Of a stretch of 64,000 nt of DNA, positions 4,438 to 39,802 are shown piece after piece. The notes under the pieces were generated by a model. It was not told the DNA's origin and searched no databases. It worked only from the letters and a program-made list of their open reading frames with translations. A program made the position numbers and the translations under genes. The DNA is from Thioclava marina (GTDB lineage: Bacteria > Pseudomonadota > Alphaproteobacteria > Rhodobacterales > Rhodobacteraceae). The stretch's first letter is position 1. Each line of letters begins with the position of its first letter. Where the stretch lies: NCBI RefSeq assembly GCF_002020135.1, contig NZ_MPZS01000001.1:248001-312000 (forward strand), read 5' to 3'.

Positions 4438-4452
4438 GTTTCTATAATGTTC
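4438..4452 (-). promoter_or_regulatory. Putative LexA (SOS) box of recA
   Basis: Read on the minus strand this is GAAC-ATTATAG-AAAC, seven of the eight fixed bases of the alphaproteobacterial LexA box GAAC-N7-GAAC. The AT-rich spacer could double as the -10 region, which would explain repression by occlusion. Position 60-74 nt above the recA start fits. One mismatch keeps confidence moderate. Confidence 0.55.
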
Positions 4453-4524
4453 TCTTTTGCACCATGCGCACGAAACAAGAACATTTCAATCAATTTCTTC
4501 GGAGTTCATCCTGCGCGTGCATGG

Positions 4525-35144: not shown

Positions 35145-35177
35145 TAAAAAAAGCCGCCACTCGTAAGAGCGGCGGCT
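35145..35177 (-). terminator. Terminator of the SOS-linked small gene
   Basis: Stem 35152-35158 with 35171-35177, extended by an inner CTC/GAG pairing around a GTAA loop. Read on the minus strand it ends in a run of U (A run 35146-35152). Confidence 0.88.
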
Positions 35178-35284
35178 AAGGAAGCGCTTCCGGACAGGCG
35201 GGCCTTGGGACAGGCGGTGCCGCAGGTTTGGGACAGGTGCGGCGGCCAAAAAGCGCGAGGCAGTAGGTAAAAATCAGGTCGGGA

Positions 35285-35407
35285 TCAGAACATCCCCGGC
35301 AGCCAGAGCGCGATGACGAAGCTCGCGCAGATCGTGATGCCACCGATCGCGTCAATCAGAAGCGTGCCGTGATTACGGTCGAGAATATCTTTGATTTCCT
35401 TGGCCAT
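35285..35407 (-). CDS. 40-residue single-pass membrane protein under a LexA box
   Basis: ATG 35405-35407, stop TGA 35285-35287. The product starts MAKEIKDILDRNHG (charged, cytosolic) and continues with one hydrophobic helix, TLLIDAIGGITICASFVIAL, ending WLPGMF. AAGGAG lies 7 nt before the ATG and codon choice matches neighbouring genes. A perfect GAAC-N7-GAAC LexA box is 59-73 nt upstream and a strong terminator 108 nt downstream, so it forms its own transcription unit below recG. Family unknown. By design it recalls SidA, the tiny SOS-induced inner-membrane division inhibitor of Caulobacter; that functional parallel is inference only. Confidence 0.7.
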   Translation of the reverse strand: MAKEIKDILDRNHGTLLIDAIGGITICASFVIALWLPGMF

Positions 35408-35419
35408 CTGGCATCTCCT

Positions 35420-35446
35420 TCACCCGTGTTGCTTATTTGTTCTCAT
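35420..35446 (-). CDS. Possible 8-codon leader ORF before the small SOS-linked gene
   Basis: ATG at 35446 with GGAGGG about 6 nt upstream reads MRTNKQHG and stops at 35420-35422, just before the AAGGAG of the 40-codon gene. It could couple translation or be accidental; too short for coding statistics. Confidence 0.3.
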   Translation of the reverse strand: MRTNKQHG

Positions 35447-35465
35447 ATTTCGCCCTCCCTGTAAA

Positions 35466-35490
35466 GAACTTTTTAAGAACATTTGAGAAC
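35466..35490 (-). promoter_or_regulatory. LexA box with a third GAAC half-site
   Basis: GAAC (35466-35469), 7 nt, GAAC (35477-35480): an exact match to the alphaproteobacterial LexA operator. A third GAAC at 35487-35490 follows after 6 nt. It lies between the recG stop and the small gene, so it controls the latter. Confidence 0.75.

Positions 35491-35519: not shown

Positions 35520-39802
<4,283 letters not shown>

Follow-up and report, generated by a model that had tools for sequence, protein, structure and literature searches.

We analysed a 64,000-nucleotide stretch of the Thioclava marina genome (contig NZ_MPZS01000001.1, positions 248,001 to 312,000; hereafter the window), in which a short open reading frame (ORF) lies behind recG. 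This ORF, here called the mini-gene, occupies positions 35285-35407 of the minus strand, as do all features described at this locus, and recG (35520-37634) is its conserved upstream neighbor. The product has 40 residues (MAKEIKDILDRNHGTLLIDAIGGITICASFVIALWLPGMF) and is predicted to be a single-helix membrane protein. Along the ORF strand, the upstream region reads GTTC-N6-GTTC-N7-GTTC, TTTACA, GAAC-N7-CAAC, AAGGAG, and ATG. The first GTTC is an extra half-site (35487-35490), and the next two make up operator 1 (35466-35480, GTTCTTAAAAAGTTC), an exact LexA-type box. TTTACA (35460-35465) is conserved in an alignment of 100 loci and is the presumed -35 element. Operator 2 (35428-35442, GAACAAATAAGCAAC) is a LexA-like box that faces operator 1 and presumably overlaps the -10 region, while AAGGAG (35415-35420) resembles a Shine-Dalgarno sequence.

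Downstream of the ORF, positions 35147-35263 contain a short Thioclava version of a conserved 3' RNA, with one CTGCCTC motif (35257-35263) and three CCTGTCC motifs (35230-35237, 35207-35214, and 35192-35198). A strong intrinsic terminator lies at 35146-35177, and a similar hairpin with compensatory changes is present in an alignment of 45 sequences. The original prediction, made from the DNA of the window alone, had described an SOS-controlled 40-residue membrane protein below recG, with GAAC-N7-GAAC at 35466-35480 and a third GAAC at 35487-35490, a good Shine-Dalgarno sequence, one membrane helix, and its own terminator. Reading of the sequence confirmed the boxes, the 40-codon ORF with its AAGGAG, the minus-strand terminator, and a single hydrophobic stretch. 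The proposal of SOS control is strongly supported by the conservation of the ORF, the operators, and the recG location throughout the family, but it was incomplete: the second, facing box and the conserved 3' RNA had been overlooked.

Conservation of the mini-gene in Rhodobacteraceae

To describe the spread of the mini-gene we used 394 Rhodobacteraceae genomes representing 393 genera. A profile built from 13 sequences matched 342 of them at E<=0.01 (13 of these matches had E > 0.001). A second profile of 62 sequences, at the lax threshold of E<=1, picked up 28 of the 52 genomes missed by the first. In 17 of these loci a small hydrophobic ORF was accompanied by LexA-type boxes, with recG visible in 15. 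Among the remaining 35 genomes, recG was searched for in 31 (all except G259, G311, G339, and G372), which yielded 23 true recG loci. A hydrophobic mini-ORF was found downstream in 14 of the 23, with an exact LexA-type box in 13 (it is absent in L193); the other nine had no pair of box and mini-ORF behind recG. By profile and neighborhood reading together, 373 of the 394 genomes carry the mini-gene, nine are without it at recG, and 12 are undecided. The 31 carriers rescued in this way were identified by position, box, and hydrophobicity more than by sequence similarity, and the most diverged of them retain little beyond the box, the hydrophobic helix, and the location.

For detailed comparison 105 loci were fetched, of which 101 were distinct after removal of duplicates; they were chosen from the better-scoring protein matches and are not a random sample. 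The location below recG, as originally described, proved to be conserved in the family: 104 of the 105 loci (all but L092) have recG upstream in the same orientation. The closest named relative is from Thioclava pacifica (93% over 40 residues), and six of the eight named loci bear a Thioclava name. A profile search of 385 genomes sampled from the class, a sample that may not include Caulobacter, matched seven genomes, five from the same family and two weakly, and thus nothing credible outside the family. The two weak matches, which fall within long frames (495 and 290 residues), were rejected as homologues. Plasmid and phage collections, searched with one query each, contained no relatives of the protein. 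On these comparisons, the mini-gene is a single-copy, near-universal gene of Rhodobacteraceae with one location, behind recG.

The substitution pattern is that of a coding sequence. Among the Thioclava loci the pooled ratio of nonsynonymous to synonymous changes (pN/pS) is 0.31, and third codon positions are the least conserved. Four residues (Asp19, Gly22, Leu34, and Pro37) are near-invariant and show no change across 62 aligned sequences. Lysine and arginine average 2.6 in residues 1-18 and 0.01 in residues 19-40 (102 ORFs, duplicates kept), and from this asymmetry a single-pass topology with the N-terminus inside is predicted. The AlphaFold model consists of one helix, residues 2-39, with a mean predicted local distance difference test score (pLDDT) of 79. 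Putative ribosome-binding signals are also retained, as 96 of 98 leaders contain a Shine-Dalgarno-like sequence. Family-wide conservation thus strongly supports a genuine small membrane protein. It had been proposed as an unannotated one, and indeed neither Pfam nor NCBIfam contains a fitting family; when the 62 aligned members were scanned, only scattered matches at E 0.03-0.1 appeared, for one or two members each, and these were discarded. No relative was found among the sequences of solved structures (PDB) at E<=10. Of two peptides compared with PHROGs, one had a single match at E 0.16, which was not accepted.

Facing LexA-type operators

The exact box occurs three times in the 64-kilobase window versus 1.85 expected (31 of 100 shuffles reach three), and 84 times in the genome versus 69 for the pattern read backwards. 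As evidence a lone box was therefore rejected, being close to chance in both window and genome. The box of the mini-gene stands above chance because it is conserved upstream in relatives. An exact GTTC-N7-GTTC lies within 200 nucleotides upstream in 104 of the 105 loci (L044 is the exception). Among the distinct loci, operator 1 was found in this interval in 100 of 101 (shuffled mean 0.45, maximum 5), which is the pattern expected of a LexA-regulon member: GTTC-N7-GTTC in the promoter, conserved in relatives. Joint conservation of the ORF and an upstream LexA box had been suggested as a check on the original prediction, and both are conserved.

Operator 2, in the form GAAC-N7-[CG]AAC, is present in 96 of the 101 distinct loci, compared with a mean of 0.85 and a maximum of 4 after shuffling. 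The operators are 23 nucleotides apart in 85 loci and 22-24 nucleotides apart in 93, and the triple GTTC-N6/7-GTTC-N7-GTTC is found in 89. In the 100-locus alignment, conservation extends over the whole block from the first GTTC through operator 2, and the paired operators bracket the presumed promoter. The joint promoter pattern occurred in 259 of the 394 genomes, none of which was seen with more than one, while a control pattern occurred in none. Several diverged members (e.g., L177, L182, L189, and L167) have TTGACA or TTGAC at -35 together with an exact GAAC-N7-GAAC as operator 2, and the usual GAAC-N7-CAAC can therefore be read as a weakened LexA site. In one of these, the very diverged carrier L189 (genome G287), both facing boxes are exact, their spacers (GTTCTCACTTTGTTC and GAACAAAGTGAGAAC) are complementary, and the boxes stand 12 nucleotides apart around TTGACG.

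The LexA consensus of Caulobacter is reported as GTTC-N7-GTTC, and about 97% of its SOS promoters are described as having one box (PMC12700426). Compared with that arrangement, the conserved facing pair suggests tight repression. The lexA promoter of T. marina itself carries the same kind of box, with three GAAC at 11-bp spacing (GAAC-N7-GAAC-N7-GAAC). A similar facing arrangement was noticed at the recA promoter in the window (4438-4482), where GTTC at 4479-4482 is combined with GAAC-N7-GAAA at 4438-4452, one base off the box. AT-rich GTTC-N7-GTTC boxes were also seen elsewhere in the genome at G000:C1:358578 (L117) and G000:C1:944139 (L135), before dprA-like and imuB-like ORFs that were named by eye only.

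Among the 52 profile-negative genomes, to which the search for lexA was confined, it is missing in three of the nine that have no mini-gene at recG (G206, G234, and G023, which are 100%, 93%, and 82% complete), compared with two of the 31 rescued carriers. This trend of joint loss agrees with LexA control but proves nothing. At the recG loci of the three genomes (L174, L173, and L186, respectively) there is no mini-gene, and the genomes have no match to the lexA model; they are possible natural losses of the SOS repressor. Genomes G068 and G339 have no lexA match either, and their mini-gene status is undecided.

It is very improbable that some regulator other than LexA binds the boxes or that the small ORF goes untranslated. 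LexA binding is deduced from sequence, and six of the nine mini-gene-negative genomes keep lexA, which would suit another regulator. On the other side are the boxes in the lexA promoter itself and the agreement with the published Caulobacter consensus (PMC12700426), while an untranslated ORF is at odds with the coding-type substitutions. Family-wide conservation of the ORF, the operators, and the recG location strongly supports LexA control of the mini-gene.

A structured RNA in the 3' region

The 3' regions were compared in 98 loci, three of the 101 having been dropped for want of a recognized terminator. CCTGTCC occurs 1.19 times per region versus 0.04 in mononucleotide shuffles, and CTGCCT 1.54 times versus 0.12; CTGTCC is present in 85 of the 98. 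Stems of at least six pairs surround the first CTGTCC in 61% of the regions versus 19% in shuffles, and a closing stem of at least seven pairs is found in 72% versus 47%. Without their terminators, the 98 regions form more stable folds than their dinucleotide shuffles do (mean z -2.02), whereas control pieces of the same length taken 500 nucleotides upstream of the ORF, mostly from recG, have a mean z of -0.33. The motif bases are unpaired with a probability of 0.73, compared with 0.40 elsewhere.

RNAalifold applied to a broad alignment (A5) gave the terminator only, and a structure-guided model was needed. A covariance model (R1) was built from 12 sequences; for its starting structure, the fold of a single sequence was drawn by hand. 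At E<=0.01, R1 matched 63 of 97 sources, once each, behind the mini-gene and on the same strand, and 51 of the 63 had not been used in model building. In the R1-based alignment 90.7% of cells are paired, and all 28 pairs vary on both sides. Cells changed on both sides number 332 versus 78 when shuffled, and the covariation score is 0.501 versus 0.156 when shuffled and 0.06-0.09 when slid, in an alignment fitted to its own model and thus biased in its favor. A second model (R2) searched against 224 whole genomes matched 47 of them, once each, and all 47 are Rhodobacteraceae. Of these genomes, 25 had not contributed to the model, and for 20 of the 25 the printed position of the ORF or promoter confirms co-location with the mini-gene.

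The RNA, of about 145 nucleotides, is composed of an unpaired CUGCCU, a closing stem, three hairpins whose loops contain CUGUCCC, CUGCCUGUCC, and UGCCUC, and then the terminator. In the R2 consensus, the bulge that separates the halves of the closing stem is UCCC, which adds one more unpaired C-rich segment to those in the three loops. Comparison of sequences thus indicates that a conserved structured 3' RNA closed by a terminator is present in many genera, the strong evidence coming from genera other than Thioclava. Rfam contained no counterpart above threshold: the window region gave four sub-threshold matches (the best, ncS54, at 25.6 bits versus a gathering score of 43), and 14 relatives gave a sub-threshold match to Ysr141 only. 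We also considered whether the 3' loops mask the ribosome-binding site of their own mRNA, and rejected it. The four complementary hexamers occur in 1, 1, 4, and 1 of the 98 leaders, versus 2.1-2.5 expected for each, and the duplex energy of loop-leader pairing is no better than shuffled.

Most likely the 3' RNA serves as a module that acts in trans or binds protein, with its exposed CUGUCC and CUGCCU loops targeting other mRNAs or a protein. There is a precedent in Rhodobacter sphaeroides, where small RNAs (sRNAs) from 3' untranslated regions are reported to be matured by RNase E (PMC8625941). Likewise UdsC, from the RSP_7527 mRNA of this species, is an sRNA carried at the 3' end of an mRNA for a small protein (PMC9779115, PMC8625941, PMC6238624). 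It differs in location and protein, and its promoter is reported to be RpoHII-dependent (PMC9779115, PMC8625941). We rejected the possibility that the two are the same gene, since their ORFs differ and so do their positions. The mini-gene lies near 1,264,690 on the contig of genome G090, which we take to be chromosome 1 of strain 2.4.1. RSP_7527 starts at 1,289,874 (PMC6238624).

The covariation and the mostly unpaired motif bases, with the RNase E-matured sRNAs as a model, might even suggest that the RNA is the main product, an SOS-induced regulator that titrates an RNA-binding protein or alters the translation of other mRNAs, and the peptide a helper. We consider this quite unlikely, as the protein profile matches 342 of the 394 genomes while the RNA model matches fewer and scores weakly in Thioclava, and diverged carriers mostly keep the peptide with no recognizable RNA.

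Possible roles of the peptide

SidA of Caulobacter crescentus is described as a 29-residue, SOS-induced protein that acts on FtsW (PMC4211646). Like the mini-protein it is a tiny, single-helix inner-membrane protein of an alphaproteobacterium, and the charge pattern and the single helix of residues 2-39 place the mini-protein, by prediction, in this very small single-pass type. The likeness drawn here is one of size and predicted topology, and LexA control of the mini-gene is itself predicted. Unlike SidA, the mini-gene encodes 40 residues, has a fixed location behind recG, and is equipped with paired facing operators and a structured 3' RNA. YneA, SosA, ChiZ, and DidA are also small damage-induced membrane proteins thought to block late septal synthesis, although they are larger, some have a LysM domain, they belong to other phyla, and DidA is SOS-independent (PMC13396833, PMC4211646). 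Small membrane inhibitors of late septal synthesis are described as a widespread SOS device (PMC13396833, PMC4211646). SulA (PF03846) did not exceed the Pfam cut-off in any of the 394 family genomes, where two weak matches had internal stops and an Escherichia coli control was positive; the mini-protein matches no Pfam family. Given LexA-type control and a membrane helix, division pausing is the most likely role of the peptide, which by analogy would make it a SidA-like checkpoint.

We therefore favor, at roughly even chances, a LexA-repressed, family-wide transcript that would yield both a SidA-like division-pausing peptide and a regulatory 3' RNA. In undamaged cells, LexA on the two facing operators that bracket the promoter would probably keep the unit tightly shut. 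DNA damage would lead to RecA-stimulated cleavage of LexA and release of a transcript of about 300 nucleotides, which would be translated into a helix of about 40 residues in the inner membrane with its N-terminus in the cytoplasm. This peptide would most likely pause division, as SidA does, by docking within the membrane on the septal synthase (FtsW/FtsI/FtsN). In many genera the transcript would end as the multi-branched RNA.

DinQ and TisB of E. coli offer a different model. Both are SOS-controlled single-helix membrane peptides, as is predicted for the mini-protein; TisB is accompanied by an antisense RNA, and so is DinQ, whereas the structured RNA of the mini-gene is in its sense 3' end. 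A peptide of this type would perturb or depolarize the inner membrane and slow growth, and its operators would be paired because leakage is harmful. The small size, the single hydrophobic helix, and the LexA-type control all fit such a toxin, and DinQ is described as an SOS-regulated toxic single-transmembrane peptide (PMC3567139). Nevertheless we regard it as unlikely. A near-universal single copy at a fixed location behind recG would be unlike a mobile toxin module, and no relatives were found in the phage or plasmid collections with one query each. The known cases use an antisense RNA and a long leader, but the leaders here are short, averaging about 28 nucleotides after operator 2 (40 nucleotides were counted, including 12 of coding sequence), and no antisense gene turned up, though no search was aimed at one.

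Alternatively, the peptide might tune another membrane system after damage, such as respiration, the CckA/CtrA phosphorelay, or the production of gene transfer agents. In Rhodobacter capsulatus, both cckA and gene transfer agents are reported to be under LexA control (PMC6473078). Such a role seems rather improbable, as the sequences give no evidence of a partner of this kind and no solved structure is related by sequence.

Several observations weigh against the SidA-like reading with its regulatory RNA. In its usual form operator 2 departs from the box by one base, and the exact form at the same spacing occurs in only two of the 101 distinct loci. Two of the 31 rescued carriers show no lexA (G072 and G382, which are 74% and 84% complete), and lexA is retained in the six mini-gene-negative genomes mentioned above. 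R1 misses 34 of the 97 sources at E<=0.01, the window included, where the copy is shortened and fits R2 weakly (24.7 bits, E 0.028) at the right place and strand. In the whole-genome search the 16 genomes of the window's genus gave no reported match, and only four of the 31 diverged carriers are matched by the RNA model (L138, L148, L149, and L167). Finally, the division target of the peptide is predicted by analogy.

No description of the mini-gene, the operator pair, or the 3' RNA was found in Pfam, NCBIfam, Rfam, or the open-licence literature (without supplements), and the same literature yielded no SOS division inhibitor for Rhodobacteraceae. In its fullest form, the SidA-like reading would mean that the family has a dedicated damage checkpoint built on one dual-function SOS transcript, in which a helix stops septation and a multi-hairpin RNA reprograms translation or titrates an RNA-binding protein, all of it silenced by facing LexA operators. 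This is possible, though we think it somewhat more doubtful than not. Both the conservation of LexA operators as a facing pair and the presence of a strongly covarying RNA at the 3' end of an SOS mRNA would be out of the ordinary. Since the mini-gene is near-universal, occupies one location, and was missed by the annotation libraries searched, the question of a checkpoint is directly testable in R. sphaeroides or R. capsulatus.
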